Below, one piece after another: positions 38,178-55,882 of a stretch of 64,000 nt of DNA. Under the pieces are notes generated by a model, which worked only from the letters and a program-made list of their open reading frames with translations, made no database searches and was not told the origin of the DNA. The position numbers and the translations under genes are program-made. Numbering within the stretch: position 1 is the first letter of the stretch; each line of letters starts with the position of its first letter. Origin of the DNA: Flavobacteriaceae bacterium (GTDB lineage Bacteria > Bacteroidota > Bacteroidia > Flavobacteriales > Flavobacteriaceae); assembly GCA_017852395.1 (NCBI GenBank), contig JAFMLE010000003.1:12190-76189 (forward strand). Direction: 5' to 3'.

Positions 38178-38803
38178 GAAGTTTTGTTATAGCAGCATCA
38201 CTTTTGTTTTTTGCTTGTCAAAATCAAGAATGGACCCCGCTGATTGCGACCGATAATCCCCACAATGATTGGGTACAGTATGGAGGTAGCGCTAGTTATG
38301 AATTTGAAGGCAATACGGTCATAGGCACCTGCGTGCCGAACGCGCCCAATAGCTTTTTGGCAACCACAAAATCCTATGCCAATTTTGAGCTACAATACGA
38401 GGTGTTGATTGATGACAACATCAATTCGGGAGTTCAAATTAGGAGCCATACCCGACCCGAATATCTGAATGGAATCGTTCATGGGTATCAAATCGAAATT
38501 GACCCAAGTCCCCGTTCTTGGAGCGCCGGAATTTATGAAGAAGGAAAACGTGGTTGGCTTGCTTCACTTGCAGAAAATCCAGCTGCACGTAAGGCTTTTG
38601 TACCCAACCAATGGAATCACTTCAGGGTGCGAGCTCAGGGGCCAAATATTTCCACCTGGATCAATGGGGTGGCTGCAGCACAAATAAAGGATACGATGGA
38701 AGCCTCAGGGTTTATTGCCCTTCAGGTTCACAGTATTGAAGATTCGACTCAAATAGGAAAACAGGTAAGGTGGAAAAACCTTGAGATTAAAATTTTAGAA
38801 TAA
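38174..38803 (+). CDS. DUF1080 family lipoprotein (3-keto-disaccharide hydrolase family)
   Basis: A 209-residue lipoprotein (LLFFAC lipobox) with a single DUF1080 jelly-roll domain. Typical pieces are SYEFEGNTVIGTC, the NFELQYEVLIDDNINSGVQIRS strand pair, GYQIEIDP, GIYEEGKRGWL, WNHFRVRAQGPNISTWING and GFIALQVH. Members of this family were shown to cleave glycosides already oxidised to 3-keto-sugars, and the Pfam family carries the name 3-keto-disaccharide hydrolase. ATGA overlap with the Gfo/Idh gene shows translational coupling, and the GMC dehydrogenase that could make the 3-keto substrate is the next gene. Confidence 0.9.
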   Translation: MRSFVIAASLLFFACQNQEWTPLIATDNPHNDWVQYGGSASYEFEGNTVIGTCVPNAPNSFLATTKSYANFELQYEVLIDDNINSGVQIRSHTRPEYLNGIVHGYQIEIDPSPRSWSAGIYEEGKRGWLASLAENPAARKAFVPNQWNHFRVRAQGPNISTWINGVAAAQIKDTMEASGFIALQVHSIEDSTQIGKQVRWKNLEIKILE

Positions 38804-38876
38804 TACCCCCTGGGGATGTTTTTTTTACAAAATAATTTTTAAATTAAATTTTATTTCAAAATATATTTAAACTAAC

Positions 38877-40598
38877 ATGCAAATAATAGAAAACGATAAA
38901 AAGTACGATGTTGTTATTGTAGGATCTGGAGCAGGAGGAGGAATGGCAACAAAAATACTTGCAGAAGCGGGTCTAAGCGTTGCCGTTGTTGAAGCAGGAC
39001 CCTTTTTTGATCCCGCAAATCCAGAACAACAAACCCAACTCAAATGGCCCCACCAATCACCTAGACGTGGCGCAAGCACCTCACAAAGACATTTTGGTGA
39101 AATGGACATGGCCTATGGCGGTTGGCAGTTAGATGGTGAACCCTACAACCATGTGGGAGACACCAAGTTTGACTGGTTTCGTTCTCGTATGCTTGGTGGT
39201 CGTACAAACCACTGGGGCCGCATTTCGTTACGATTTGGACCTCGAGATTTTAAAAGTAAAGATCGAGACGGTATCGGAGAAAACTGGCCCATCGGTTATG
39301 AAGACATCAAGCCCTATTATGATAAAGTGGACAAGCTGATTGGTGTTTTTGGAACAAAAGAAAACATCTACAATGAGCCTGATGGATTTTTCTTACCCCC
39401 ACCAAAACCCCGTTTGCATGAGTTGTATTATAAAAAAGGAGCTGAGAAATCAAACGTTAAAGTGATGCCCTCTCGCTTGTCTATTGTTACAAAACGCATC
39501 AATGATCAACGTGGCGTATGCTTTTATTGCAATCAATGTAATCGGTCGTGTCAAGTATATGCAGATTTTTCTGCGGGATCATGTCTGATATTCCCAGCGC
39601 AAAAATCCAGAGGACAAGTAGATCTTTTCGTTAACTGTATGGTACGAGAAGTAACCGTCAATGATGAAGGACGCGCTACCGGAGTTTCTTACATCAACAA
39701 AGAAGATCGTCAAGAATATAAACTCAAAGGACGTATTGTTGTATTGGCCGCTTCTGCGTGTAGTACCGCACGAATCCTACTCAACTCAAAAAGTAAGCAA
39801 CATCCAAACGGTCTTGGAAACAGCAGTGATTTGGTAGGAAAATATCTTCATGATTCTACCGGTGCGGATCGTATGGCTTTTGTGCCCGAAATGATGAACC
39901 GAAAACGCTATAATGAAGATGGCGTAGGAGGAATGCACCTCTACTCTCCTTGGTGGTTAGACAACAAAAAACTCGATTTCCCAAGAGGCTACCACATTGA
40001 AGTTTGGGGAGGATTGTCGATGCCGGGTTATGGCTTTGGCTTCAATCCAAACGCACTCAATGAACATCTTGGACTCAAAGTCGGAGGTTATGGCAACGGA
40101 TTGCGTGATGACGTCAAAAAATTCTATGGTGCAACCATGGGGATGTCGGGACGTGGAGAATCGATCGCGCGTAAAGAAAATTATTGTGAAATCGATCCAA
40201 CGACCGTTGACGAATTTGGAATCCCAGTTTTGCGATTCAATTACAAATGGACCGATGCCGAGCGTAAGCAAGCCAAACACATGCACGACACCTTTGAAGA
40301 AATTATTCATAATATGGGGGGCATTGCATTAGGCGAAAAACCTGGAGCAGACAAAAACTATGGACTGCACAACCCCGGTGCTATTATTCACGAAGTAGGT
40401 ACTACTCGTATGGGAAGCGACCCCAAAAACTCCGTGGTAAACGAATTTGAACGTTTGCATGACGTTGACAATGTTTTTGTTGTCGATGCGGGACCCTTTG
40501 TTTCACAAGCAGACAAAAACCCTACTTGGACCATCTTGGCCCTCTCTTGGAGAACCTCAGAATTCATAATCGAAGAACTTAAAAAACAAAATATTTAG
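38877..40598 (+). CDS. GMC-type flavin dehydrogenase, probable glycoside 3-dehydrogenase large subunit
   Basis: A 573-residue GMC oxidoreductase related to gluconate 2-dehydrogenase and glucoside 3-dehydrogenase large subunits. FAD-binding IVGSGAGGGMATKILAEAG is near the N-terminus, RMLGGRTNHWGRISLRF covers the isoalloxazine region, and the C-terminal motif NPTWTILALSWRTSEFI closes the FAD site with a His near HEVGTTRMG. It has no signal peptide; export likely depends on the Tat leader of the small subunit encoded 2 bases downstream. An unusual cysteine group lies at residues 215, 218, 221 and 225, suggesting an Fe-S cluster. Predicted role: oxidise sugar hydroxyls in the periplasm and pass electrons to a cytochrome. 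Confidence 0.9.
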   Translation: MQIIENDKKYDVVIVGSGAGGGMATKILAEAGLSVAVVEAGPFFDPANPEQQTQLKWPHQSPRRGASTSQRHFGEMDMAYGGWQLDGEPYNHVGDTKFDWFRSRMLGGRTNHWGRISLRFGPRDFKSKDRDGIGENWPIGYEDIKPYYDKVDKLIGVFGTKENIYNEPDGFFLPPPKPRLHELYYKKGAEKSNVKVMPSRLSIVTKRINDQRGVCFYCNQCNRSCQVYADFSAGSCLIFPAQKSRGQVDLFVNCMVREVTVNDEGRATGVSYINKEDRQEYKLKGRIVVLAASACSTARILLNSKSKQHPNGLGNSSDLVGKYLHDSTGADRMAFVPEMMNRKRYNEDGVGGMHLYSPWWLDNKKLDFPRGYHIEVWGGLSMPGYGFGFNPNALNEHLGLKVGGYGNGLRDDVKKFYGATMGMSGRGESIARKENYCEIDPTTVDEFGIPVLRFNYKWTDAERKQAKHMHDTFEEIIHNMGGIALGEKPGADKNYGLHNPGAIIHEVGTTRMGSDPKNSVVNEFERLHDVDNVFVVDAGPFVSQADKNPTWTILALSWRTSEFIIEELKKQNI

Positions 40599-40600
40599 CC

Positions 40601-41299
40601 ATGAACAGAAGAGAAAGTATACGATCCATTGTTTTGGGTTCTATGGCAGGATCACTTGTCATCGAAAGTTGTGCCGGTGCCCCCGAAGAAGTAGTGGTTG
40701 ATAAGATATGGAAACACCAATACGGTAGAACCCCCAAAGAGGCCGCGATCAATGAAAAACTGCTTGCAGAGCAGTTTTTTATAAGTCACGAAATGCAAAC
40801 GATTACCACCCTGGCACAATTGATTCTTCCCCCAACAGAGGAAGGTACAATTGAACAAGCAGGAGTGCCCGAATTTATTGAGTTTATGGTTAAGGATTTT
40901 CCTTCCATGCAAACACCAATTCGTGGAGGCATCATGTGGCTCGATAACCATTGTAATAATGCCTATCAAAAAACCTTTGTAAACTGTTCTGAAGACGAAC
41001 AAAAAGAAGTTCTTGATCAAATTGCTTATCCCGATCCAAATACCAAAGTACAAAAGCAAGAAGTACAATTCTTTTCTTTGATGCGCAATTTGGTTATGAC
41101 CGGCTATTTTACCTCAGAGGTTGGAATCAAAGAGTTGGGATACCAAGGCAATCAACCCAATGTGTGGGACGGAGTTCCTGAAGATGTATTGGCAGATCAT
41201 GGAATGGAATATGACGCGGATTGGATGCCCAAATTTATCGATCAATCAAAACGAAATGACACGGCTGTATGGGATGATGAGGGAAATTTATTAACCTAA
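40601..41299 (+). CDS. Gluconate 2-dehydrogenase subunit 3 family protein (Tat signal)
   Basis: A 232-residue small subunit of the GMC dehydrogenase. The leader MNRRESIRSIVLGSMAGSLVIESC combines a twin-arginine pair with a lipobox-like Cys, so it can carry its large partner across by the hitchhiker route known for FAD-dependent glucose dehydrogenase. The domain body (QMITT-like helices, LAQLILPPTEEGTIEQAGVPEFIEFMV, FFSLMRNLVMTGYFTSEVGIKELGYQG) is typical of the family. It starts 2 bases after the large subunit. No haem motif is present, so electrons must leave through another protein, such as the cytochromes further along the locus. Confidence 0.9.
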   Translation: MNRRESIRSIVLGSMAGSLVIESCAGAPEEVVVDKIWKHQYGRTPKEAAINEKLLAEQFFISHEMQTITTLAQLILPPTEEGTIEQAGVPEFIEFMVKDFPSMQTPIRGGIMWLDNHCNNAYQKTFVNCSEDEQKEVLDQIAYPDPNTKVQKQEVQFFSLMRNLVMTGYFTSEVGIKELGYQGNQPNVWDGVPEDVLADHGMEYDADWMPKFIDQSKRNDTAVWDDEGNLLT

Positions 41300-41309
41300 A
41301 CACACTGTA

Positions 41310-43601
41310 ATGGAAAAAAGTAATGCTAAAAAGTTGCTTAGAACAAGTGCTTTTTTCATAGTCCCTTTTCTAATTGTTTGGATCTATAAAATTACACAAG
41401 CTCCAAGCGTCGAACAATTTAACACCACGATAGCAGAATCAGCACCATCGGGAATACCCGCGGTTGTTAACTACAATTTTGACGTCAAACCCATATTGTC
41501 AGACAAGTGCTATGCCTGCCACGGCCCCGACCAAGAAGCACTGCAAGCAAATCTCAGACTCGATACGGAAGCTGGAGCCTTTGGTTTTGCAAAAAATCTA
41601 TCTGAGTTACCCATCATCAAAAAAGGAGATCCACAGGGGAGTGCTCTGATTTTTCATATCAACAGTACCGATCCCAAAACTCAGATGCCCCCACCAGATT
41701 CTAATTTGTTTTTGACTGATAGACAAAAACAAATTCTTCAAAAGTGGATCGAGCAGGGGGCGCCGTGGGAAGGGCATTGGGCCTACCAAACTCCCAAAAA
41801 GCCCACGCCACCCGATGCTAAAAACAACAATTGGGTAAAGAATCCTATCGATCATTTTATCGCAGCAAAACTAAATACAATGGGGTTGCAACCTGCACCT
41901 CTTGCTGAAAAGGAAATTATTTTAAGACGCTTGTCTTTTGATCTTATTGGTTTGCCACCATCTATTGAATTGATGGACCAGTTTTTAAACGATACCTCAG
42001 AAGATGCCTACGAAAAAATGGTCGATCATCTGATGGCACAACCTCAATTTGGAGAACGAATGGCTTCCGTTTGGCTCGATGTCGCGCGGTATGCGGACAC
42101 TCATGGTTATCAAGACGACCTAGAACGGGTCATGTGGCCGTGGAGAGACTGGGTCATCAGTGCGTTTAATCGCAACATGCCCTATGATCAATTTATCACA
42201 TGGCAATTGGCAGGGGATCTTTTGGATGCACCAACTTTAGAACAAATCGTAGCCACAGGATTTAATCGCAATCACAAAATCACTCAAGAGGGGGGTGTGA
42301 TCGATGAAGAATACCGCGTAGAATATGTTGCGGATCGCGCCATCACCACATCAAAAGCACTTATGGGAATTACTGTAGAATGTGCCCGGTGCCACGATCA
42401 TAAATACGATGCAGTTTCTCAAAAAGATTTTTTTAGTCTCTATGGATTTTTTAATAATGTTGACGAAAAGGGACGGATAGAATATGGCGAAACTCCAGCA
42501 CCGTTTATTAAAATTGACCACAAAGTAGTAGAAAATGAGTTGCCGTTTATGCACCTGCCCGATAGTATACCATCGGTAGAATTGATGGTGATGGAAGAAG
42601 TGGCCAACCTTAGAAAAACATATACCCTAAAAAGAGGGGTCTATGACGCTCCAGATCAACAGGTAGATCCGGCCACACCAAATAGTATTTTAGCATTTGG
42701 CGATCAATACCCATCCAACCGTTTGGGGTTAGCGCAATGGTTTTTTGACGAAAAAAACCCCCTCACCACTCGTGTAGTGGTCAATCGTTTTTGGCAACAG
42801 TTTTTTGGTCGAGGCATCGTCTCAACACCTGATGATTTTGGCAATCAAGGAGCTCGTCCTACCCATCCTGAGTTACTCGACTGGCTCGCAGTAACCTTTA
42901 GGGTTGAAGACCAGTGGGACATCAAGGCATTTGTCAAGAGGCTGGTGACTTCGTCCACCTATAGACAGTCGAGTAAAACCAATTTTGAAGCGGTCCAACG
43001 CGATCCAGTAAACGCATATTTGGCTTTTTATCCAAGACAAAAACTACCTGCCGAAATGGTTCGTGACAATGCACTGGCAACCAGTGGCTTATTAAACTCT
43101 ACCATTGGCGGTCCCAGTGTAAAACCCCACCAACCCGAAGGGCTATGGGAAGAAACTACCTCTGGACAAGGATTAACCCAATACCAGCCCGATGGCGGAG
43201 TTAATCGTTATCGACGAAGCCTATACACATTTTGGAAGCGTACTGTACCTCCCCCCAACATGATTACTTTTGATGCGTCTACGAGAGATTTTTGTACCGT
43301 AGAACGTCAAAAAACCAGTACCCCTTTACAGTCTTTGGTACTGTTAAACGACCCCCAGTTTTTTAATGCTGCCGAGGCCTTAGCCCAAAGAATTAATGAT
43401 GCGGGATTGGATAATGACGCACAAAAAATTCAACATCTTTTTAGATCAATTACGCTTCGCATGCCCAGTGCCAAAGAACGGGAGTTGTTAGAAACCTATT
43501 TTGATCAAATCATAGAAAATAAGGAATCGGATGCTCAAAATCCCTACATCGATCTAGCCCTACTGATTTATAATCTTGACGAAACCACTCAAAAAAGCTA
43601 G
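41310..43601 (+). CDS. Planctomycete-type cytochrome c / DUF1549 / DUF1553 protein
   Basis: A 763-residue exported protein with an N-terminal anchor (residues 9-30). A planctomycete-type cytochrome domain has Cys67-Tyr-Ala-Cys70-His71, then the DUF1549 domain (about 160-375), which includes a second CxxCH (residues 358-362, [11 protein letters not shown]), and the DUF1553 domain (about 465-725). This architecture is a hallmark of Planctomycetes and occurs in some marine Bacteroidota. Its biochemical role is unknown. The spacing (10 bases after the dehydrogenase subunit, 3 before DUF1501) shows co-transcription. It could receive electrons from the GMC enzyme; that is inference. Confidence 0.9.
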
Positions 43602-43604
43602 TAT

Positions 43605-45071
43605 ATGGATCCATTACATCAGCATTTTTTAAATCAAAACAGAAGACATTTTTTACAAAAAATGGGTCTGGGAATTGGCGGATTGGCCTTAGGAAGTCTT
43701 ATGGATCCTTTTGGATTTGGCAAAACACCTTCTGCCAATGACCTGTTGCAAACCGGTCCTGTGCCACTACCGCATTTTGCCCCCAAAGCAAAAAGGATTA
43801 TTTATTTGTTTCAAAGTGGCGGTCCTTCTCAATTGGATCTTTTTGATTATAAGCCCTTGCTCAATAAAATGCGAGGGAAGGATTTACCAGAATCCATTCG
43901 AAACGGGCAACGACTTACAGGTATGACCTCTGGCCAAGATCAATTTCCACTCACGGGAAGCATTTATAATTTTAAGCAATATGGTGAGTCTCGGACATGG
44001 ATTAGCGACTTGATGCCCTATACAGCAAAAATTGCCGATGAGCTATGTTTTGTCAAATCCATGCATACCGAAGCCATCAATCATGATCCTGCCATCACTT
44101 TTTTTCAAACGGGTTCGCAGCAATCTGGCCGACCAAGTTTTGGTTCTTGGATGAGTTATGGGTTGGGAAGTCTCAACGACAATTTGCCGGCCTTTATTGT
44201 GATGCTTTCACGAGGTAGCGGTCGACCCAATGGTCAGCCATTATATTCTCGATTATGGGGCAATGGATTTTTGAGTTCGTTGCATCAGGGTGTTCAATTT
44301 CGCTCCGGAAAAGACCCCGTGTTGTACCTCAAAAACCCTGATGGTGTAACCCGTGCAGAGCGCCGTCAAATGCTCGATTATTTAGCCGCCATGAACGAAC
44401 AACAAGAACAATTTTTTGGTGACCCAGAAGTTGCCAATCGAATTGCGCAATACGAAATGGCTTACCGTATGCAAACCTCGGTTACCGATGTTATGAATAT
44501 CGAAGATGAGCCCGATCATGTTTTTCAAATGTATGGGCCTGATGCCTTAACGCCAGGGACATTTGCTGCCAATTGCATCTTAGCGCGCCGTTTGGTAGAG
44601 CGCGATGTACGATTTGTGCAGCTCTATCATATGGGTTGGGATCAGCACGACAATCTTCCTACTCAAATTGCAAAGCAGGCCAAAGATGTTGACCAAGCCT
44701 CTGCAGCACTTATAATGGACTTAAAACAACGTGGGTTGCTTGAAGACACATTGGTGGTTTGGGGTGGAGAATTTGGGAGAACTAATTATAGTCAAGGCGT
44801 TCTTACCGATACCAATTATGGAAGGGATCACCACCCAAGGTCATTCTCTATTTTTATGGCTGGCGGTGGTATAAAACCAGGTTTTACTTATGGTGAAACA
44901 GATGACTTTGGCTACAATGTGGTCAAAGACCCTATGCATGTTCATGATCTACAAGCCACGATTCTCAATCAATTTGGAATCGATCATACCAAAATGACCT
45001 ATAAGTATCAAGGAAGACGTTTTCGACTGACTGACGTAGCCGGAAATGTGGTTCACTCTATATTATCTTAA
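43605..45071 (+). CDS. DUF1501 family exported protein
   Basis: A 488-residue DUF1501 protein, related in fold to alkaline-phosphatase/sulfatase superfamily enzymes. The leader (NRRHFLQKMGLGIGGLALGSLM) is Tat-like. The domain shows AKRIIYLFQSGGPSQLDLFDYKP at the start, HDPAITFFQTG and SFGSWMSYGLGS in the middle, and VVWGGEFGRTNYSQG...GRDHHPRSFSIFMAGGG with probable metal-ligand Asp and His near the end. DUF1501 genes habitually follow DUF1549/DUF1553 genes, as here (3-base gap). Whether it is a hydrolase of sulfate or phosphate esters is not known. Confidence 0.9.
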   Translation: MDPLHQHFLNQNRRHFLQKMGLGIGGLALGSLMDPFGFGKTPSANDLLQTGPVPLPHFAPKAKRIIYLFQSGGPSQLDLFDYKPLLNKMRGKDLPESIRNGQRLTGMTSGQDQFPLTGSIYNFKQYGESRTWISDLMPYTAKIADELCFVKSMHTEAINHDPAITFFQTGSQQSGRPSFGSWMSYGLGSLNDNLPAFIVMLSRGSGRPNGQPLYSRLWGNGFLSSLHQGVQFRSGKDPVLYLKNPDGVTRAERRQMLDYLAAMNEQQEQFFGDPEVANRIAQYEMAYRMQTSVTDVMNIEDEPDHVFQMYGPDALTPGTFAANCILARRLVERDVRFVQLYHMGWDQHDNLPTQIAKQAKDVDQASAALIMDLKQRGLLEDTLVVWGGEFGRTNYSQGVLTDTNYGRDHHPRSFSIFMAGGGIKPGFTYGETDDFGYNVVKDPMHVHDLQATILNQFGIDHTKMTYKYQGRRFRLTDVAGNVVHSILS

Positions 45072-45074
45072 TCA

Positions 45075-46109
45075 ATGACCACGCGACGTGATTTTTTGAA
45101 TAGGAGTTTGGCCCTAGGAGCATCAGCTTTTGCTCCAAGTGTATTTTGGTCCTGCGGCAATGATGATCCCTTAATAATTGGACATGGCGAATATCGTTAT
45201 CGCATAATACCCGATTGGGGAAAACAAGATGCTTCAAAATTTCCAGTACAAGACTGCCATGAAATGGTTCAAACTCAGAACGGCGACTTGTATCTTCTGA
45301 CCAATCATACCCGAAACAATATATTGGTCTACTCGTTGGATGGAAAAATCAAAAACGCATGGGGTACCGTATTTCCTGGAGCACATGGATTGACCCTTTT
45401 TGATGAAAATGGTTCAGAAGTATTATGGATCACCGATTATGAAAGGCATCAAGTTTTTAAAATGACCTTAGACGGTCAGCTTTTGCTTACCATAGATGCA
45501 CCTCAAGATGTTTTGGCGTATAAGGATCCTACTAATTTTAAGCCAACAGAAACTGCAATTGCATCGGACGGAAGTATATATATCGCGGACGGTTATGGAG
45601 CACAACACATCCTTCATTATGATCCAAATGGGCAATTGTTGAATGTATTTGGAGGTTATGGAACCGAGGCTCATCTTTTTCAAAACGCACACGGAATCTG
45701 TATCGATGATCGAAAAAAAGATTCTCCCACACTTTTGATAACTGCTAGAGAACAACAAGCGGTAAAACGGTTTAGCCTAGAGGGCAAACACCTCGAAACC
45801 ATCAGTTTGCCCGGTGCCTACATTTGCAGACCGGTCATACACAATGAACAATGCTATTTTAGTGTCTTAAAATCCAAAGGCGTGGGCAATGCAGACTCTG
45901 GATTTGTTCTTATTATGGATCAAAATGATCAGGTGGTTTCTTGCCCTGGAGCAACCTTTGACTCTGAAAATAAAGCTGATTTTTTATACCATCAAACCAT
46001 GCGGGTGTTTCAATATCCACATGATGTTTGTGTGGATCGAGACGAAAATCTATATGTAGCGCAATGGAATTCTGGAAACACCTACCCGATTAAATTAGTA
46101 CGTGTATGA
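45075..46109 (+). CDS. Exported NHL-type six-bladed beta-propeller protein
   Basis: A 344-residue exported propeller. The leader MTTRRDFLNRSLALGASAFAPS is a Tat-type signal, followed by WSCGND, which could serve as a lipobox. NHL-like blades are visible (HEMVQTQNGDLYLLTNHTRNNILVYS, AHGLTLFDENG, ETAIASDGSIYIADGYGAQHILHY, NAHGICIDDR, YPHDVCVDRDENLYVAQWNSGNTYPI). Such propellers bind or sometimes lyse substrates; no catalytic residues are clear. The ATGA overlap with the next gene and 3-base gap to DUF1501 place it in the same transcript, so a role in the same glycan pathway is likely. Confidence 0.8.
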   Translation: MTTRRDFLNRSLALGASAFAPSVFWSCGNDDPLIIGHGEYRYRIIPDWGKQDASKFPVQDCHEMVQTQNGDLYLLTNHTRNNILVYSLDGKIKNAWGTVFPGAHGLTLFDENGSEVLWITDYERHQVFKMTLDGQLLLTIDAPQDVLAYKDPTNFKPTETAIASDGSIYIADGYGAQHILHYDPNGQLLNVFGGYGTEAHLFQNAHGICIDDRKKDSPTLLITAREQQAVKRFSLEGKHLETISLPGAYICRPVIHNEQCYFSVLKSKGVGNADSGFVLIMDQNDQVVSCPGATFDSENKADFLYHQTMRVFQYPHDVCVDRDENLYVAQWNSGNTYPIKLVRV

Positions 46110-46891
46110 TTTGGAGGGGTTTGTACTTTGGTGTTCTGTTGTTTGTTGGCTGCGCTCAAGAAACGATCTATCTAAAACCTGATGCGGTTCAACTTTCAAC
46201 TCCTGTCGTAGAAACTTCGACAATTTATTCAAATGGAGTGAATAAATTGACTGCCCCCAATCTTGACCCAGAAGCAACATTGGAAGTCGTACATCAATCG
46301 ACCGGAGGTCGCTTGACTATGGCATCTGGAGCATCACTAGATTTGGAGCTATCGGGTAAATACCAGATCCGTTCGCTTCGGCCGCCGTTACAACCCAGTG
46401 CGACAATAGAACTTCAGTTGCTGCCTGAGGGGCAGCTGATATCGAGTCTCACTTGGGAGACGCAACCGGAGCCTGAATATTTTAAGGGTGGAAGTGCCGT
46501 TTTGACTGATGGAAAAAGCGAAGGGCCATCCTTTCAATCGGCAGGATGGACGGGCGCTAACCGTCCTTTTGTTGTCTCTGTCGAAATGGCGCACGTCAAA
46601 GCAATCGACTCCATGGTATTGGGTGTATTGGCCGATGCAGGAGCTTGGATTTTTCCGAAGGCAAAAATGCAACTCACTGCAACTTCGGACAATGGTGCAC
46701 CAATTCAGAAAGAATTTATGCTAGAACTACCTTGGCAAACACAAGGACCTTCGCACCACTTTATATCGGTACCTTTAGGAATTCAGGCACAAACATTTAC
46801 CCTTCAGTTTGAGCCTGCACTGCTTCCAGAACAGCACCAAGGAGCCGGGCAGCCTGCCTGGTTATTTTTGGACGAATTGATAATTTATTAA
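46106..46891 (+). CDS. Exported protein with CHB_HEX-like and discoidin-like domains
   Basis: A 261-residue lipoprotein (YFGVLLFVGCAQE). The first half (about 25-115) looks like an FN3-associated, CHB_HEX_C_1-type beta domain. The second half resembles the discoidin-like (F5/8-type) module that ends the next two proteins, finishing with GQPAWLFLDELIIY. No catalytic domain remains, so it is probably a pure glycan- or surface-binding protein. It overlaps the propeller gene by 4 bases. I know no named family for the whole protein; the domain reading is by pattern only. Confidence 0.65.
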   Translation: MIWRGLYFGVLLFVGCAQETIYLKPDAVQLSTPVVETSTIYSNGVNKLTAPNLDPEATLEVVHQSTGGRLTMASGASLDLELSGKYQIRSLRPPLQPSATIELQLLPEGQLISSLTWETQPEPEYFKGGSAVLTDGKSEGPSFQSAGWTGANRPFVVSVEMAHVKAIDSMVLGVLADAGAWIFPKAKMQLTATSDNGAPIQKEFMLELPWQTQGPSHHFISVPLGIQAQTFTLQFEPALLPEQHQGAGQPAWLFLDELIIY

Positions 46892-46906
46892 TTTAAAAAC
46901 AACACT

Positions 46907-48925
46907 ATGACACCGTGGTTAGATTATTTAGGAAAGTTTCATCCCGTCGTGCTTCACCTTCCAATAGGTGCCATGGTATTTACTTTTGTTTTGGTACTTC
47001 TAGCCCTCAGAGACCAAAATCCCGCTACAGGGACCATCAAAATCGGATTGATATTCAGCTTTTTTGGGGCACTAATTTCTAGCCTACTGGGCTACTTATT
47101 GTACCAATCAGGCGGTTATGATGAGGCTTCTGTTCAAAACCATTTGATTTTAGGATGGGCATCAACCTTTGGAATAGGACTCTTGTGGTATCTATTGGAG
47201 CGGGTTGTTTTTCAAAAAGTATTTGCACCAATATTTTTTACAGTACTGGTTGCTATTGGGCTAACGGGTCATTTTGGAGGAACCATTACGCATGGAGAGG
47301 GGTATCTCGATTTTCCGGAACCCGCCCCTGTAGAAGTAGCGGTCAACCTTGACTCGATACAGCTTTATAGCCAGGCGGTTGCAAAAATCTTCGACAGCAA
47401 ATGTGTAAGCTGCCACAATTATTCGAAGCGAAAGGGCGGTTTGGCTATGCACCTTCCACAAGCCCTTTTAGAAGGCGGCGAGCGTGGCATGCCCTATGAA
47501 ATTGGTAATGTTGCAGAAAGTAGATTGATTCGTTATGCCAATCTTCCACTTGAAGACGATCTGCATATGCCGCCCCAAGGGCGCCCTCAATTGACCCCCA
47601 CCGAAATTGAACTGCTGAGCCACTGGATCGCTTCCGGCGCATCGTTTGACCATACGGTAGCATACGCACAACTGCCCGAAACAGTACAAGAAGCCATGGA
47701 TGTTTTTTTACCCAAACCCCTACCAGACGTACCTCCGCTATCGTCAGACGATGTATTGGCACTTCAAGAAAATGGCTTTCGGGTAAGCAGTTTTTTGGCT
47801 AATACCCCTTTTATCCAAGTCAAATTTGAAAAAAAGGAACTTGATCCAAAGGCTATTGGCGCTCTGGTTGATGTAGCGGATCAGCTTGTAGAACTCGAAT
47901 TGGCCAACACGACGATTGCCCCCCTTTTGTGGGACAAATTGCCCCAATTTAAGCAGTTACAAAAATTGCGACTCGACAACACCAATACCTCGGACGAACA
48001 GCTTCAAAAATTGATGGAGCTGCCCTTGCGTTCTTTAAATCTTGCCGGCACTTCGATCACAGCATCGGGCATTTCACTTTTGTCCGAACACCCCCAATTA
48101 GAACAGCTTTATGCTTGGAACACACAAGTGACACGTCAAGAAGAAAGTACACTCCAAGAAAAAACACCAATCAAATTGGTTTTTGGCGTTTTTGAAGGCT
48201 TTTCTGAGCCCCAACGTCTAAAACCTCCGATGTTGGATACCGAAAAAACACTATTTGAAACCGAGCAGCTTGTTTCTTTTTATGATAAAGTAAAAGGCAA
48301 TACGATACGCTATACCCTAGATGGCAGTGATCCGGATTCGACCTCCACACTATATCAAGATGCCATAGTCATCAATAAGAGCCTTACGCTCAAAGCGCGC
48401 GTCTTTAAATCGGGGTGGTTGCCCAGTCCGGTTTTTGAAGAACAATTTTTTAAAGTCAATAAAACCATCGCTGACTACACCATGGAAACCCGCCCGTCCA
48501 ATCGGTATTCTGGTGTACACAAATTGTTTGATTTTGAAGAGGGTTCTACCAACTTCGCCGACGGCAAGTGGTTGGGCTTTTCTGGAAACGATTTGGCATT
48601 TACTACCCAAGTCGCCGCTCATGAAACCATCAATAACATCACGGTGAGTTGTATGGAATCTATTGGTGGGTGGATCATCTACCCAAAACGTGTTCGTGTA
48701 TTGGGCCGAAAAGGATCGGGTACTTTTACAGAATTGGGACGCTACGAATACCGCCCCACAGAAATCCCCACAGAAACCACCAAAAAGAGTTTTACCGTCC
48801 CGGTCAAATTGCAACAGCATACCGAGCTAAAAGTGATCGTAGAAAACATCAAAAAATTGCCCCAATGGCATCCTGCCGCAGGAGAGGATTCTTGGTTGTT
48901 TGTTGATGAAATTTTATTTTGGTAA
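46907..48925 (+). CDS. Membrane DUF2231 - cytochrome c - LRR - CHB_HEX - discoidin-like fusion protein
   Basis: A 672-residue multidomain protein. Residues 1-130 hold about four membrane helices of the DUF2231 type (YLGKFHPVVLHLPIGAMVF). A planctomycete-type cytochrome domain follows with Cys166-Val-Ser-Cys169-His170 and the distal segment DLHMPPQGRPQLT that can supply a Met ligand. Residues about 260-420 are short leucine-rich repeats (LVELELANT, LQKLRLDNTNTSDEQLQKL, LRSLNLAGTSI). A CHB_HEX_C_1 module (IRYTLDGSDPDSTSTLY) and a discoidin-like C-terminus ending DSWLFVDEILFW close the protein. I infer a membrane electron acceptor whose outer part docks onto glycan or protein partners. Confidence 0.85.
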   Translation: MTPWLDYLGKFHPVVLHLPIGAMVFTFVLVLLALRDQNPATGTIKIGLIFSFFGALISSLLGYLLYQSGGYDEASVQNHLILGWASTFGIGLLWYLLERVVFQKVFAPIFFTVLVAIGLTGHFGGTITHGEGYLDFPEPAPVEVAVNLDSIQLYSQAVAKIFDSKCVSCHNYSKRKGGLAMHLPQALLEGGERGMPYEIGNVAESRLIRYANLPLEDDLHMPPQGRPQLTPTEIELLSHWIASGASFDHTVAYAQLPETVQEAMDVFLPKPLPDVPPLSSDDVLALQENGFRVSSFLANTPFIQVKFEKKELDPKAIGALVDVADQLVELELANTTIAPLLWDKLPQFKQLQKLRLDNTNTSDEQLQKLMELPLRSLNLAGTSITASGISLLSEHPQLEQLYAWNTQVTRQEESTLQEKTPIKLVFGVFEGFSEPQRLKPPMLDTEKTLFETEQLVSFYDKVKGNTIRYTLDGSDPDSTSTLYQDAIVINKSLTLKARVFKSGWLPSPVFEEQFFKVNKTIADYTMETRPSNRYSGVHKLFDFEEGSTNFADGKWLGFSGNDLAFTTQVAAHETINNITVSCMESIGGWIIYPKRVRVLGRKGSGTFTELGRYEYRPTEIPTETTKKSFTVPVKLQQHTELKVIVENIKKLPQWHPAAGEDSWLFVDEILFW

Positions 48926-48926
48926 T

Positions 48927-51110
48927 ATGAAACACACAATCTTTTATGTTCTTTTGACAGCGATCTGCATCGCTTGTTCTTCCAATTCGATACCCTTGAT
49001 ACAAAAGGGTAAAAGTACTTTTGGAATTTTACAAACCGAAGATCATAAAAGCATCTCGGATACCCTAAGTGTTTATTTGGAACAAGCAACAGGGGTGCGT
49101 TTGGCGGCAGTATCGGAAGGGGACACCGGGCCCAAAATCCGATTTGAAATCGATCCCAACACAACCGATTTTACAAAAGTCTATTGGCGGGAGGGCGACC
49201 TGATCTTTACGGCCAATTCTGAGAAGATGCTAACCAATGGGGTCTATGCTTTCTTAGAACAATCTCTAGGTGTGCGTTGGTACGATCCGCAAACGACAAT
49301 AGTACCCCAACAACAATCGGTTTTGTTGCCCCAAGGAGTGGTATTGGCACACACGCCACAAGTGACTACAAGAACCGTACATGCCCGACTCTTTTATGAC
49401 CATCCAGAATTTGCAGAAAAGCTACGTGTAACCCCCGTTGCTTTTCCGGACTATGTGCCTGAGGCACGTGTACATACCTTTCATAGGTTTATGCCCCATG
49501 AAAAATATTATCAAGACCACCCCGAATATTATGCGCTACGCAACGGAAAACGATTGCCCACCCAATTGTGCCTGACCAACCCCGATGTTTTTGATATTGT
49601 CAATGATGCGGTAAAAATATTGTTTGAGCGTTATCCCGATTATAAAGTCCTTTCGGTAAGTCAAGACGACAATACACAATATTGTCAATGTGAGGCTTGT
49701 GAAAAAATTCACCAAGAAACCGGAAGCCCTGCCGGGAGTATGATTGATTTTGTAAACAGAATAGCCGCCGGTTATCCTGACAAAACCATATCAACTTTGG
49801 CCTATCAGTATACCCGAAAACCACCAACAAATCGCCCTGCAGAAAATGTATTGATCACCCTCTGTTCTATTGAGTGCGACCGCAGTGTCCCCATTGCGGA
49901 GGGTTGTGCTGCTTTTGCACAAGATTTGGCCGGATGGTCTGCCCTGACAGACAACATCCGTATATGGGATTATACCACACAGTTTACCAATTTTTTGGCG
50001 CCATTTCCCAATTGGCAAACCCTACAGCCCAATATCGAATTGTTTGTTGCCAATAATGCCCGTTGGATTTTTGAGCAACACAGCAACCAGCCCAGCGAGC
50101 TTTTTGCCTTGCGCGCCTATATTACGGCGCAACTTTTGTGGAATCCCAACCAGGATTTGGACCTTTTATTAGCAGACTTTACCAATGGATATTATGGTGC
50201 CGCAGGCCCTTATGTATTGCAGTACATTACTGAAATTTCGGAAGCTATGGCTGATGCTCAACCGTTTTTTTTGTTTCTCTATGGCGATCCATCGCAAGGT
50301 TTTGACAGTTTCTTGAGTGCGCAACAGTTAAACAAGTATCATGCTTTGTTTGAGCAAGGCGCACAGGCCGTTGCAGGACAACCAGCCTTGGAGGCCCGAT
50401 TGGCAGAAGCCCAATTGTCCATAGACTATGCCATGCTAGAAGCCTATCGAAAGGGGCTAGAAGGATTTGAGATGCGCACCGACCAGACGGTCAATCCACG
50501 TGTTTTGGATGTGCTCAACCGATTTGAAACCGTAACCGCACAAAGAAACATTACGGCGATGAACGAAACCCGTTTTACCGTAGCGCAATATCTGACCGAC
50601 TATAGAAACATGCTCACACGCATGCAGACCCCCAATCGGGCAAAAGGTAGTCGGGTACAATTGTTGACCCAACCCAAAAAGTATGCGGATGAAAATCCAC
50701 AAACACTGACCGATGGCGCTTTTGGAGGCAGCAGTTTTTATGCAAATTGGTTGGGCTTTGAAGGTAACAATCTAGAAGCGGTCATTGACTTGGAGACGGT
50801 TATGGAGATTCATCAATTAGAAATTGCTTTTTTGCAGGTGACCAATCACATCGTATTTTTTCCGACACAGGTACAATTTTCGGTTTCTCAAGATGGCGTC
50901 AACTGGGTGGCTCTGCCCGCAATAGCCAACCAAGCACCGTTGCAGCCCGATAGCAAAATAAATGACCACCAGATTTTTGCTATAAAAAATGTAGAACAGC
51001 AAGCCCGTTATGTAAAAGTAGTGGGTCAAAACCCAGCAACAGCACCCTATTGGCACCATGCTGCCGGTCTTCCTTCTTGGGTGTTTGCGGATGAAGTACT
51101 CATTAACTGA
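48927..51110 (+). CDS. DUF4838 family lipoprotein with C-terminal discoidin-like domain
   Basis: A 727-residue lipoprotein (ICIACSS) of the DUF4838 family, related to alpha-glucuronidase/GH20-like TIM-barrel proteins. An N-terminal alpha/beta domain (about 30-130, GVYAFLEQSLGVRWYDP) precedes the barrel (FHRFMPHEKYYQDHPEYYAL, VLSVSQDDNTQYCQCEAC, IDFVNRIAAGYPDKTISTLAYQYTR). The C-terminal 140 residues form a discoidin-like module ending in LPSWVFADEVLIN. The ATG at 48927 is chosen because it begins the lipoprotein leader and lies one base after the previous stop. Asp and Glu candidates for catalysis cannot be fixed from sequence. It probably cleaves or binds an uronic-acid or amino-sugar glycan. 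Confidence 0.85.
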   Translation: MKHTIFYVLLTAICIACSSNSIPLIQKGKSTFGILQTEDHKSISDTLSVYLEQATGVRLAAVSEGDTGPKIRFEIDPNTTDFTKVYWREGDLIFTANSEKMLTNGVYAFLEQSLGVRWYDPQTTIVPQQQSVLLPQGVVLAHTPQVTTRTVHARLFYDHPEFAEKLRVTPVAFPDYVPEARVHTFHRFMPHEKYYQDHPEYYALRNGKRLPTQLCLTNPDVFDIVNDAVKILFERYPDYKVLSVSQDDNTQYCQCEACEKIHQETGSPAGSMIDFVNRIAAGYPDKTISTLAYQYTRKPPTNRPAENVLITLCSIECDRSVPIAEGCAAFAQDLAGWSALTDNIRIWDYTTQFTNFLAPFPNWQTLQPNIELFVANNARWIFEQHSNQPSELFALRAYITAQLLWNPNQDLDLLLADFTNGYYGAAGPYVLQYITEISEAMADAQPFFLFLYGDPSQGFDSFLSAQQLNKYHALFEQGAQAVAGQPALEARLAEAQLSIDYAMLEAYRKGLEGFEMRTDQTVNPRVLDVLNRFETVTAQRNITAMNETRFTVAQYLTDYRNMLTRMQTPNRAKGSRVQLLTQPKKYADENPQTLTDGAFGGSSFYANWLGFEGNNLEAVIDLETVMEIHQLEIAFLQVTNHIVFFPTQVQFSVSQDGVNWVALPAIANQAPLQPDSKINDHQIFAIKNVEQQARYVKVVGQNPATAPYWHHAAGLPSWVFADEVLIN

Positions 51111-51213: not shown

Positions 51214-54200
51214 ATGAAACCAAAACATCTTTTTTTTACGGTGCTGTTTGGTTTGTTTGCCACGCTAGCGCAGGCACAAACCATTACCGGTACTGTATCC
51301 GATGAGAACGGTATGCCCCTTCCAGGCGCAACTGTTCTAGTAGAAGGTACAAGCAATGGTGTTTCGACTGATTTTGATGGTAACTTTAGCATTGATGCCA
51401 ATGTTGGAGATACCTTAGTGATCAGTTTTGTCGGTTATGCTTCACAGAGTGTCTCTGTGTCGAGTGGATCGGCGATTAACATCTCTTTGGAACCGGACAA
51501 CAGTCTTGATGAGGTTATCGTTACATCCCTTGGGGTAAAACGTAACGTCAAGGCACTGGGTTATTCTGTAACGCAGGTTGAAGGAACCGAAGTAAGTGCC
51601 AACAAAACAACCAACGCAATTAACTCGTTGCAAGGAAAAATTGCTGGGGTTCAAATCACCGGAAATGCGGCAGGAGCCAAGGGTTCTAGCCGGGTGATCA
51701 TCCGTGGTAACAGTTCCTTGACCGGTAATAACCAGCCGCTCTACGTAGTGGATGGTATTACCATCAACAACTCCAACTTAGGTTCTGCTGGGGTTTGGGG
51801 AGGTGCTGATGCCGGGGACGGTATTTCTGCACTTAACCCAGACGAAGTAGAGTCGATCTCTGTCCTTAAAGGGGGTGCAGCTGCAGCGCTTTATGGATCT
51901 CGAGCTTCTAATGGTGTTATCATCATTACCACCAAGTCTGGTGCAGGAGCTGGAGAAGGGATGAGTGTCGAGATCAGCAGTTCTGCGCAGTTTGATGACA
52001 TTAGAAATGATCCTTATGATCCACAAACCACCTATGGTCAAGGTCGTGATTATTCTACCTCTTCAGACAATATCGATACCTATGCCAACTGGGGACCACG
52101 TATGAATGGTGCTAGCGTTGAGCAGTGGGACGGTGTTTCTAGACCGTACTCGTACAAAGGAAATAACTTGAGAAAATTTTATAGCACTGGAGAAACCTAT
52201 ATCAATACGATAGCGATCAACTCTGCTAGTAAAAATTCTAATACACGTCTTTCTTTTACCAATTTGAGCAACGTGGATATCATTCCAAACTCAACATTGA
52301 AGCGTAATTCTCTTGGTCTTAATACCACGCAGAAGTACAAAAAATTAACGGCTACATTAAACGTAAAATACGTTAATGACGATGCAGTTGGAGCGCCAAG
52401 ACTTTCGGACTCTCCAGGTAACGCCAACTTTGGTATCCGTTTGTTTGCGCCTTCAATTGATGTTAATGACATGCTAGGTGCTGGAGGATTAGGAACTAAC
52501 GAAGACGGAACCGAATTCCGTACCAGTGACAATACCTATTCTCAAAACCCTTGGTTTGCTGCCTATCAGTACTTTGACAATTCAGTAAAAGAACGCTTTA
52601 TTGGATCAGCAGACATGCGATTTGACCTTAACGATATTTTCTATCTAAGAGGACGTTTTGGGGTTGACCGCTATGACTACCACAGAACAAGCGGTACTCC
52701 TTATGGTACAGCGTATCAGCCACTAGGTAGTATGAGTGAGTATAAGTTGACCAACAACCAACACGATGCGGATCTTTTCTTCGGGATGAACAATTTTGAC
52801 ATCACCGATGATTTGTCTGTAACTGCTTTTGTGGGTATCGGTCAAAACTACCAGCGTGCAGAGTCAGTTTCTGCAAGTGGTAGCAACTTTATCGTTCCTT
52901 TCCTTTACAATGTTAAAAACACACAAAACCAAGGAAACTCGTATGGTTTTAGTGAAAAACAAATCAACTCTGCCTACGGTTCTGCCGAATTTGGGTTTAG
53001 AGATGCTATGTATCTAACATTGACTGCACGTAACGACTGGTTCTCTACCTTATCGTTGCCAAACAAAGAAACGCCTAACAACGACTTGTATACTTCTGCG
53101 AGTTTGAGTTTGGTGCTTTCAGATTTGATGACCCTACCCGAAGTAATCTCTTTTGCAAAACTTAGAGCAGGTTATTCACAAGTAGCAGGTGGTGCTGATA
53201 GTCCTTATCAGTTGAACCTAACTTATGGAATCTACGGACAAGGACATCAAAATGCTTCACTGGGTACGATTTCAAACGGTTCAATTCCTAATCCAGACAT
53301 CACTCCTTTTGAGAAAGATGAAACTGAGGTTGGTTTAGATCTTCGTTTGTTTGACAACAAAGTATCTCTTGATCTTACCTATTACTCCAACGAAACCAAC
53401 GGTGATATCGTAGGTGTAAGTGCTTCTCCAACTTCGGGTTATGGAAGTGCTTTAGCAAACCTTGGGGTGATTACTAACGAAGGTATTGAGGCCTTGGTGA
53501 ATTTCTCACCAATCAGAAACGAAGATTTTGCATGGGATGTTACGCTTAACTATTCTAACAACGAATCTACAATTGTTTCTACCAACGATGCCGGAACAAA
53601 CATCACACTTGACGAGCCACGTTCACGTAACCTCAATGTTACGCATATCGTAGGTGAGCGCTACGGTGCACTTTATGGTACTTCTTATGTGCGTGATGCA
53701 CAAGGACGTATCGTTCATAACATCGAGCCCGATGGAACTCCGATTCCACAGATTGGACCACGTAAAATCTTAGGATTTGGTGTATCACCAACATCTGTTG
53801 GTATTACCAATAGTTTCAGATACAAAAACTACACCATGAGCTTCTTAATCGAAGGTAAAAGTGGTGGTCAAATGTATTCTGGTACCAACGCCATGTCTAA
53901 GTATTTTGGAGCACACAAAGCTACTATCGATGCTGATGGCCGTGAAAACGGATTTACTGTATCTGGTGTAGATGCAAACGGAAACGCATTTACTACCTCT
54001 ATTGCACCTAACCGTATCGAAGATTACTGGAGACAAACGTATTCGATTGCTGAAGAAGCAATATACGATACCGATTACCTAAGACTACGTCAAATGTCTA
54101 TTGGGTATACACTACCAGATAGTGCACTCGAAGGAACACATATCGACAGTGCTACTGTATCTCTTATCGGAAGAAACCTTTTCTTCTTGAGTAACAGCGT

Positions 54201-54312
54201 TGAAAATGTGGACCCAGAGTCTGGATACAACGTGAGTAACTCACAAGGTCTTGAATGGTTCGGTATGCCCGTTCCACGTTCTTTAGGAATCAATGTGAAC
54301 CTTAAATTTTAA
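51214..54312 (+). CDS. SusC/RagA family TonB-linked outer-membrane transporter
   Basis: A 1032-residue TonB-dependent glycan importer. After the signal peptide (LFATLAQAQ) comes a carboxypeptidase-D regulatory-like domain (ITGTVSDENGMPLPGATVLV, about 24-100), the plug with VIVTSLGVKRNVKALGYSV and LYVVDGITI, the SusC-type ALYGSRASNGVIIITTKSG motif, and a 22-strand barrel ending PRSLGINVNLKF. A 103-base gap separates it from DUF4838, with no hairpin, so read-through or its own promoter is possible. SusD follows after 5 bases. Codon choice (CCA/CCT for Pro, GGT, AAC) differs from the flanking genes, which use more CCC and TTG; this fits high expression. Confidence 0.97.
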   Translation: MKPKHLFFTVLFGLFATLAQAQTITGTVSDENGMPLPGATVLVEGTSNGVSTDFDGNFSIDANVGDTLVISFVGYASQSVSVSSGSAINISLEPDNSLDEVIVTSLGVKRNVKALGYSVTQVEGTEVSANKTTNAINSLQGKIAGVQITGNAAGAKGSSRVIIRGNSSLTGNNQPLYVVDGITINNSNLGSAGVWGGADAGDGISALNPDEVESISVLKGGAAAALYGSRASNGVIIITTKSGAGAGEGMSVEISSSAQFDDIRNDPYDPQTTYGQGRDYSTSSDNIDTYANWGPRMNGASVEQWDGVSRPYSYKGNNLRKFYSTGETYINTIAINSASKNSNTRLSFTNLSNVDIIPNSTLKRNSLGLNTTQKYKKLTATLNVKYVNDDAVGAPRLSDSPGNANFGIRLFAPSIDVNDMLGAGGLGTNEDGTEFRTSDNTYSQNPWFAAYQYFDNSVKERFIGSADMRFDLNDIFYLRGRFGVDRYDYHRTSGTPYGTAYQPLGSMSEYKLTNNQHDADLFFGMNNFDITDDLSVTAFVGIGQNYQRAESVSASGSNFIVPFLYNVKNTQNQGNSYGFSEKQINSAYGSAEFGFRDAMYLTLTARNDWFSTLSLPNKETPNNDLYTSASLSLVLSDLMTLPEVISFAKLRAGYSQVAGGADSPYQLNLTYGIYGQGHQNASLGTISNGSIPNPDITPFEKDETEVGLDLRLFDNKVSLDLTYYSNETNGDIVGVSASPTSGYGSALANLGVITNEGIEALVNFSPIRNEDFAWDVTLNYSNNESTIVSTNDAGTNITLDEPRSRNLNVTHIVGERYGALYGTSYVRDAQGRIVHNIEPDGTPIPQIGPRKILGFGVSPTSVGITNSFRYKNYTMSFLIEGKSGGQMYSGTNAMSKYFGAHKATIDADGRENGFTVSGVDANGNAFTTSIAPNRIEDYWRQTYSIAEEAIYDTDYLRLRQMSIGYTLPDSALEGTHIDSATVSLIGRNLFFLSNSVENVDPESGYNVSNSQGLEWFGMPVPRSLGINVNLKF

Positions 54313-54317
54313 TTAAA

Positions 54318-55811
54318 ATGAAAAAGTTTTTAACCTTAATTATTGTAAGTTCACTATTCATTGCCTGTGATTTTGACAAAGGTTTTGATGAAATGAACAT
54401 CAACCCTACTAAGGCGGCAAAAATTGATGTAAACAACAAGTTGGCATCGGTATTTTTGAGAACCTCAGGGGAGCGTTATGAAAACTGGAGAGCAAGTTTG
54501 ATCTATTCTTCGATGATTGTTCAACACATGTCTTCTACAGCAACTTACTGGACCGGAAACTTCTACACCCGCAACGAGGGTTATGCAACGTCACTTTTTG
54601 ACCGCGCCTACCCACAGCAGGTGAAAGAAATTGAAGATATCATCTACCAGTTAAACGAAGAAGGAAACACCGGAACCGCTATGGGTATTGCCCGTATCTG
54701 GAGAGTGTTTATCTACCACAGACTTACAGATTTATACGGAGATATTCCTTATTCAGAAGCTGGAAAAGGATACATCGAAGGCATCTTAAAGCCTGTATAT
54801 GACGCACAACAAGACATCTATATGGATATGTTGGCAGAGCTCGAAGGCGGTGTTGCCCAATTGGGTGCCAGTACACTTGGTGTTTCTGACCTTATCTATC
54901 AAGGAGATGTGGACAAATGGCGTCGTTTTGGAAACTCGATGATGCTTCGTTTGGCGATGCGATTGACCAAAGCAGATGCTGCTACAGCTCAAGCTTGGGC
55001 AACCAAAGCAATCAGTGCTGGAACCATGGGTTCTAACGCTGACATCGCGTACGTTCAACATACTTTAGGCCCAGAAGGGATCAACAAAAATGGTCATGGA
55101 GAGGTGTTTAGTGCCGATGGCAACCCACGTCTTTCTAAGACTTTTGTAGATTTCTTACAAGGAGACCCACGTCTTCCTATTTTAGGTGCTCGAAGAAGCG
55201 ACGGAAGTACCAATCCTGCGGACCTAATTGGTTTGCCTAACGGATTGACTTCTGGTGCACTTGAGGCCAAATATGGAACTACTAGTGATCAATATGCAGA
55301 GCCTAACCGCGGCGTAATCACTAGTGAGGATGCTCCTATGGTATTCCAAACGTATGCAGAAGTTGAATTCTTAAAAGCAGAAGCTGCTACTCGCGGGTGG
55401 ATCTCTACAGATGCTGCAACACACTATAACAATGGTGTAAAAGCGGCCATGCAAATGTTAAGCATGCTCTATCCTAATGCTGCAGCCATTTCTGACGCAC
55501 AAGTTGCCGATTATCTTGCTGCACATCCGTTTGATGCTGCTAACGCTATGGAAATGATTCATACCCAATATTGGGCTGCAACTTTCCTAAACGAGTATGA
55601 AGCATTCGCTAACTGGAGAAGAACAGGCTACCCAACTTTACAACCTTTTGGTGGTGAAGCGGTATATGATGGTAACGTGACCAATGGTACCATTCCTAGA
55701 CGTCTGATTTATCCAAACGGCGAGGCAAGCACCAACCCCGAAAACTTCGAAGCTGCTCTTTCTAGACAAGGGCCTAACGAGTTTACAACTCGAGTTTGGT
55801 GGGATAAATAA
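54318..55811 (+). CDS. SusD/RagB family glycan-binding lipoprotein
   Basis: A 497-residue surface lipoprotein (LFIACDF) that forms a lid over its SusC partner and captures oligosaccharide. It belongs to the SusD-like group seen as short SusD_2 proteins: helical TPR-like segments (RIWRVFIYHRLTDLYGDIPYSEAG, WRRFGNSMMLRLAMRLTKAD, EFLKAEAATRGWI, EYEAFANWRRTGYP) and a C-terminal RLIYPNGEASTNPENFEAALSRQG. It lies 5 bases after SusC and is followed by a strong terminator, so the SusC/SusD pair can be a separate high-level unit. The ligand is not predictable from sequence. Confidence 0.95.
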   Translation: MKKFLTLIIVSSLFIACDFDKGFDEMNINPTKAAKIDVNNKLASVFLRTSGERYENWRASLIYSSMIVQHMSSTATYWTGNFYTRNEGYATSLFDRAYPQQVKEIEDIIYQLNEEGNTGTAMGIARIWRVFIYHRLTDLYGDIPYSEAGKGYIEGILKPVYDAQQDIYMDMLAELEGGVAQLGASTLGVSDLIYQGDVDKWRRFGNSMMLRLAMRLTKADAATAQAWATKAISAGTMGSNADIAYVQHTLGPEGINKNGHGEVFSADGNPRLSKTFVDFLQGDPRLPILGARRSDGSTNPADLIGLPNGLTSGALEAKYGTTSDQYAEPNRGVITSEDAPMVFQTYAEVEFLKAEAATRGWISTDAATHYNNGVKAAMQMLSMLYPNAAAISDAQVADYLAAHPFDAANAMEMIHTQYWAATFLNEYEAFANWRRTGYPTLQPFGGEAVYDGNVTNGTIPRRLIYPNGEASTNPENFEAALSRQGPNEFTTRVWWDK

Positions 55812-55837
55812 TGTTTAAAATTTATTCTTAAATTTAT

Positions 55838-55871
55838 GCGAAGGAGAATCATTTCTCCTTCGCTTTTTTTT
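55838..55871 (+). terminator. Intrinsic terminator after SusD gene
   Basis: An 11-bp perfect stem (GCGAAGGAGAA with TTCTCCTTCGC), loop TCAT, is followed by a run of eight T. It lies 27 bases after the SusD stop and 12 bases before the next gene, so it should strongly limit expression of downstream genes relative to SusC/SusD. Confidence 0.88.
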
Positions 55872-55882
55872 AACCAAATTGT

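Follow-up and report, generated by a model that had tools for sequence, protein, structure and literature searches.

Gene sets that combine PSCyt1, PSCyt2, and PSCyt3 with PSD1 to PSD5 are known from Rhodopirellula and from freshwater Verrucomicrobia, and although their domain combinations have been described, their function was still stated to be unknown in 2017 (PMC5615132). R. baltica carries 41 copies each of PSD1 and PSC2 (PMC2754498). PSCyt proteins that bear carbohydrate-binding modules (Laminin_G_3 and CBM_6) have been reported previously, with F5_F8 given as a protein-interaction domain (PMC5615132). DUF1501 proteins are also found paired with another protein in the DUF1800/DUF1501 pairs that occur, for example, beside bacterial chitin synthase genes; no cytochrome partner is mentioned in the available part of the paper on those pairs (PMC5122149), and the link between DUF1800 and PSD1 is weak.

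We analyzed a 64,000-nucleotide stretch of a Flavobacteriaceae genome (contig JAFMLE010000003.1 of GCA_017852395.1; hereafter the window) that contains a cytochrome gene, here called T, downstream of genes for a PSCyt2-PSD1 protein (P) and a DUF1501 protein (Table 1). The set resembles the planctomycete-type sets in its PSCyt1 domain, in its operon with PSCyt2-PSD1, and in the presence of carbohydrate modules on PSCyt proteins. It differs from them in that T adds DUF2231 and leucine-rich repeats (LRR) and carries neither PSCyt2 nor a PSD domain, and in that, in Bacteroidota, T accompanies the set almost without exception. As fusions of PSCyt proteins to carbohydrate modules have already been reported, the joining of a sugar module to T is not wholly new in kind. 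Our literature search found no paper that ties DUF2231 to the PSCyt/DUF1501 system, and no biochemistry for any member of the system.

Table 1. Positions of T, its domains, and neighboring genes in the window
Feature	Position	Strand	Description
GMC oxidoreductase + Gluconate_2-dh3 small subunit	38877..41299	+	co-directional here; not conserved neighbors of T
Partner P	41310..43601	+	PSCyt1 + PSCyt2 (DUF1549) + PSD1 (DUF1553), 763 aa; CxxCH sites CYACH, CARCH
Partner DUF1501	43605..45071	+	488 aa; NRRHFL twin-arginine-type N terminus; weak sulfatase/phosphodiesterase-superfamily similarity
NHL beta-propeller protein	45075..46109	+	frequent operon member
Putative lipoprotein	46106..46891	+	261 aa; lipobox-like LLFVGC; free-standing relative of T tail
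Target cytochrome gene T	46907..48925	+	672 aa; DUF2231 + PSCyt1 cytochrome c + LRR + CHB_HEX/Fn3_assoc + discoidin-like tail
DUF2231 membrane domain of T	46928..47296	+	residues 8-130
PSCyt1 haem-c domain of T	47402..47581	+	residues 166-225; CVSCH haem site
Leucine-rich repeats of T	47744..48136	+	residues ~280-410
Fn3_assoc/CHB_HEX_C_1 module of T	48257..48448	+	residues 451-514
Discoidin/CBM32-like C-terminal domain of T	48524..48919	+	residues 540-671
DUF4838 (GH163-type) putative lipoprotein	48927..51110	+	T-type discoidin tail

Domain architecture and conserved residues of T

The original prediction held that one protein joins DUF2231 helices, a CxxCH cytochrome, LRR, a CHB_HEX_C_1 module, and a discoidin-like C terminus, and this architecture is borne out by profile searches, AlphaFold, Foldseek, and the relatives of T. 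The reading frame is open from end to end, and its whole length is conserved in relatives down to 24-36% identity (NCBI names T a "c-type cytochrome domain-containing protein"). Three Pfam matches to T lie well over cut-off: Fn3_assoc (E 7e-17), CHB_HEX_C_1 (7e-14), and PSCyt1 (PF07635, 1e-7), the last of which was matched in 21 of 21 full-length relatives. The CVSCH motif at residues 166-170 is the sole CxxCH in T. LRR_4 stays below threshold in the single sequence (0.011). A profile built from 25 short relatives, however, matched many LRR proteins among solved structures (best E 2e-37), and residues ~280-400 form the beta-alpha repeats of an LRR in the AlphaFold model, with pLDDT mostly 70-92; beyond these repeats and the tail the model is of low quality, and its confidence in the tail is only moderate. 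The prediction would have been refuted had profile searches not borne out the LRR or the CHB_HEX module; with the Fn3_assoc/CHB_HEX matches, the LRR profile, and the fold evidence, both assignments hold.

The DUF2231 domain (PF09990) is sub-threshold in the T of the window (0.11). It was matched in 17 of 21 full-length relatives when full-length proteins were searched, and in 43 of 44 members at E<=0.1 (best 9e-15) when the region was searched alone. A few DUF2231 members match Cytochrom_B561 or COX15-CtaA weakly, below cut-off, and comparison of a DUF2231 profile with solved structures in the PDB yielded no meaningful relative. The tail of T (residues 465-670) matches the C-terminal ~205 residues of BT0459, a beta-hexosaminidase of B. 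theta (PDB 6q63, E 7e-17), F5_F8_type_C is detected in 6 of 21 full-length relatives, and Foldseek matched the T model to BT0459, LRR proteins, CBM32, and F5/8 domains; on these alignments and the model, we assign a discoidin fold to the tail. BT0459, a GH20 enzyme, and the GH20 enzymes of related loci thus have a CHB_HEX/Fn3_assoc plus discoidin C terminus homologous to that of T. In contrast to them, T lacks a glycosidase domain and is a membrane cytochrome that bears the tail.

Residue conservation was assessed in 62 aligned T sequences, fusions included (see below). The CxxCH motif and Met221, the probable sixth haem ligand, are invariant, and five histidines of the membrane domain (H12, H17, H79, H122, and H129) are kept in 60-62 of the 62 sequences. 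The modeled helix order would place these histidines towards one face of the membrane. This face is probably the periplasmic one, given that the haem-c domain comes after the final helix and that a signal-peptide-like segment opens some relatives. It is possible, as a weak inference, that DUF2231 of T holds a b-type haem.

The membrane-cytochrome part of T is present in 33 of 149 Flavobacteriaceae genomes (matches limited to the tail being left out) and, at high score, in 37 of 296 Bacteroidota genomes. Both samples together gave 108 separate T genes, of which 29 are full length (at least 650 aa, which leaves room for the tail) and 79 are short; the tail was confirmed with Pfam in the 21 full-length proteins scanned, and length was used for the remainder. 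The count of similar architectures that accompanied the prediction as a check thus shows that the T architecture is recurrent. As T without a tail is commoner than T with one, the PSCyt/DUF1501 system does not require the tail.

Operon partners and natural fusions

Neighboring genes at T loci were labeled by comparison with the proteins of the window. T forms an operon with P and DUF1501 at 44 of 45 distinct loci (L037 and L039 are one contig), with DUF1501, plus PSCyt1-PSCyt2-PSD1 where the sequence allows, directly upstream of T in 44 of the 45. P and DUF1501 are therefore constant partners of T. The NHL propeller is often in the operon, and a free-standing relative of the tail occurs at most full-length T loci. 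A PSCyt2 gene lies no more than 9 kb away on the same strand for 97 of the 108 T genes, with T downstream in 96. The remaining 11 T genes have no PSCyt2 gene nearby, and at the exceptional locus (L043, genome G004) T adjoins an Asparaginase_2 gene and a sulfatase, with P and DUF1501 together on a different contig. The linkage of T to PSCyt2 is thus not absolute.

The distribution of the three proteins across genomes agrees closely. Among the 149 Flavobacteriaceae genomes, T is found in 33, PSCyt2 (PF07583) in 34, and strong DUF1501 matches (E<1e-70) in exactly the 33 that have T; the sole extra PF07583 genome (G112) contributes a fragment at a contig edge. In the Bacteroidota sample, PSCyt2 is present in 37 of 37 T genomes and T in 37 of 38 PSCyt2 genomes, the single genome without T (G413) having a diverged PSCyt2. 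Fisher p values for the co-occurrence of T and PSCyt2 are 2e-32 and 2e-46, and as they ignore shared ancestry, they are indicative only.

In nine proteins (L082-L090; 944-948 aa), the membrane and haem part of T is followed by PSCyt2-PSD1 in one frame, and each of them adjoins a DUF1501 gene. The three that were run through Pfam matched DUF2231, PSCyt1, PSCyt2, and PSD1, all over cut-off, and contain a sugar-binding-type Glyco_hydro_2_N (GH2_N) insert; this insert passes the cut-off in one of them. The fusions retain two CxxCH sites. No LRR was seen in the fusions, which suggests that the LRR of unfused T may serve docking.

Outside Bacteroidota, two large plasmids of Catenovulum adriaticum (Gammaproteobacteria; L102 and L103) carry T, DUF1501, DUF1553, and either a six-bladed propeller or a hypothetical gene. 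The order of T, DUF1553, and DUF1501 differs between these plasmids, one copy of which lies beside GH115 and GH98 genes, and a Haliscomenobacter plasmid has the order T-DUF1501-DUF1553. Gene content on plasmids is thus kept despite the changed order, which supports a functional link within the set.

Profile searches of the partners against solved structures matched P only to cytochrome domains (hydrazine synthase, 2e-5) and to LamG-type structures, and gave weak sulfatase/ENPP matches for DUF1501; PSD1 proteins give weak DUF1800 matches. The AlphaFold model of P reached a pLDDT of 37 and was discarded. Matches of P to CTI, a fatty acid isomerase, were short and below cut-off, and this candidate was set aside.

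Carbohydrate modules and glycan loci

Carbohydrate modules occur on P as well as on T. P proteins of ~1080 aa have a Laminin_G_3 domain between PSCyt2 and PSD1 in 8 of 15 members of set A3 (the position was located in the first member), and one P of the ~900-aa class has a CBM_6, below cut-off. Wherever a full-length T has a nearby P, that P lacks an insert (27 of 27); for the 70 short T proteins with a nearby P, the latter is insert-bearing by length in 51, without an insert in 12, and of intermediate length in 7. About three changes on the T tree account for this complementarity, and an independent-pairs test is powerless, so we regard it as a suggestive pattern that carries no statistical weight. 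One clade of short T proteins (L056, L060, L061, L067, L071, and L078) has a P with no insert; several of its members share upstream genes, including one for a short secreted protein that has a TSTVHDW motif and is possibly YceI-like, and no obvious glycan genes are seen in the clade.

Glycan genes lie clearly near full-length T in the window and at L034, L040, L041, L044, L045, and L049, and genes of other forms (sulfatase and the like) do so at L043, L048, and L051. At L040, L041, and L044 the operon stands amid GH92, GH20, GH29, and GH3 genes, with DUF4838 also at L040, and the GH20 enzymes scanned at L040 and L041 bear a T-type tail. GH92 is near the operon at L045, and a sialate O-acetylesterase and a sulfatase are near it at L049. 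The glycan-type genes of the window encode DUF4838, a sialidase-like BNR protein, and SusC/D. Glycan genes were not seen near T at L036, L037, L042, L046, or L047 (neighbors at the last three were judged by eye, and only part were scanned). The glycan setting on which the original prediction drew is therefore frequent at full-length T loci but is not the rule.

DUF4838 has been annotated as GH163 (PMC9870897), whose substrate is complex N-glycans, and BT0459 is an N-glycan GlcNAc-ase (PMC10154615). In several species the surroundings of the operon are of the N-glycan type (GH92, GH20, GH29, and DUF4838/GH163). For some members of the family, but not in general, it is plausible that the T operon is linked to GlcNAc-containing glycans. 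In the window, the 261-aa lipoprotein, T, and the DUF4838 protein are encoded by consecutive genes (46106-51110) and have homologous discoidin tails, as also found on GH20 enzymes at related loci; DUF4838 most likely begins with the ATG at 48927, a single base past the T stop. Further downstream, a SusC-SusD-ASPIC/VCBS-FAD oxidoreductase block (51214-61082) is syntenic with genome G004, in which the Asparaginase_2 neighbor of T is glycosylasparaginase-like.

Proposed role of T and alternative explanations

Taken as a whole, our results are best explained, and with reasonable probability, if T, anchored in the membrane, serves as the electron-transfer subunit of a periplasmic complex formed by PSCyt1/PSCyt2-PSD1 and DUF1501. 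That T is a membrane subunit is well supported by comparative genomics: we observe its architecture, its operon and co-occurrence with the partners, natural fusions, and conserved haem and histidine residues, from which we infer a physical complex, a quinone link, a b-haem, and glycan binding. In such a complex, the four-helix bundle of DUF2231 would anchor T in the membrane and would probably trade electrons with the quinone pool, possibly via a b-haem on the conserved histidines. The His/Met haem c of the PSCyt1 domain would pass electrons to or from the PSCyt2-PSD1 haems, and the partners would probably dock on the LRR. Glycan would probably be kept near the complex by the CHB_HEX-discoidin tail and the related lipoprotein, a task that probably falls in other lineages to LamG, CBM6-like, or GH2_N modules inserted in P.

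The original prediction had envisaged electron uptake close to bound substrate or dehydrogenase, and named the GMC complex as a partner. Electron transfer near carbohydrate by a haem protein with glycosidase-type modules remains plausible, but the dehydrogenase link is not supported. If T were the electron acceptor of the neighboring GMC/Gluconate_2-dh3 sugar dehydrogenase, in the style of gluconate and fructose dehydrogenases, it would resemble their cytochrome subunits in being a membrane-associated c-type cytochrome near such a pair, and the pair does lie just upstream of the operon, co-directional and with short gaps. PF13618 (Gluconate_2-dh3) is also enriched in T genomes (31 of 33, versus 48 of 116 Flavobacteriaceae genomes without T). 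However, the pair adjoins the operon in the window only and at no other locus examined, PF13618 is common without T (the 48 genomes), and the set of T genomes tracks PSCyt2 and DUF1501, not PF13618. The cytochrome subunits of known FDH/GADH carry three CxxCH, whereas T has one haem-c site, other domains, and no conserved linkage to the pair. We therefore reject GMC as a general partner of T and consider this explanation highly improbable. The pair is part of a run of genes directly upstream of the operon (36867-41299: GFO/IDH oxidoreductase, 3-keto-disaccharide hydrolase [PF06439], GMC, and Gluconate_2-dh3) that resembles a 3-keto-glycoside pathway. The window also encodes a 325-aa secreted cytochrome (12479-13459) that combines SoxA/TsdA-type with cytochrome c domains and may be dihaem.

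T might instead sense redox state or haem, or help to assemble the system, and carry no electrons in turnover. This reading would accord with its single haem c, with the frequent use of LRR and discoidin domains as protein-recognition modules, and with the hybrid two-component regulator that lies beside the operon in at least one locus (L050). We think it very unlikely, as T has no signaling domain, its conserved His/Met haem ligation fits electron transfer, and the fusions put its haem into one chain with PSCyt2-PSD1. A separate question concerns the tail, which might fix the complex to peptidoglycan, to membrane glycans, or to the related 261-aa lipoprotein instead of to substrate glycan. 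Discoidin folds bind not only sugars but also proteins, the lipoprotein bears a tail related to that of T, and several full-length T loci are without glycan genes; yet the closest solved relative of the tail is the N-glycan enzyme BT0459, and the neighboring GH20 and DUF4838 enzymes have the tail in common with T, so that we judge this role for the tail somewhat unlikely.

If T is the membrane subunit of the PSCyt2-PSD1/DUF1501 complex, a further step, which we put forward tentatively and consider unlikely, is that they make up a novel type of oxidoreductase, dependent on haem and coupled to quinone, that chemically modifies or cleaves periplasmic glycans, with glycosidase-type binding modules moved between subunits, and complements glycoside hydrolases. 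PSCyt, PSD, and DUF1501 proteins are present in dozens of copies per planctomycete genome, and have gone without a known function for two decades. What is new here is that, in Bacteroidota, these proteins have a membrane cytochrome as a nearly constant partner, and that natural fusions tie T to PSCyt2-PSD1. The single-copy sets of flavobacterial genomes open the function of the PSCyt/DUF1501 system to simple knock-out and purification tests.
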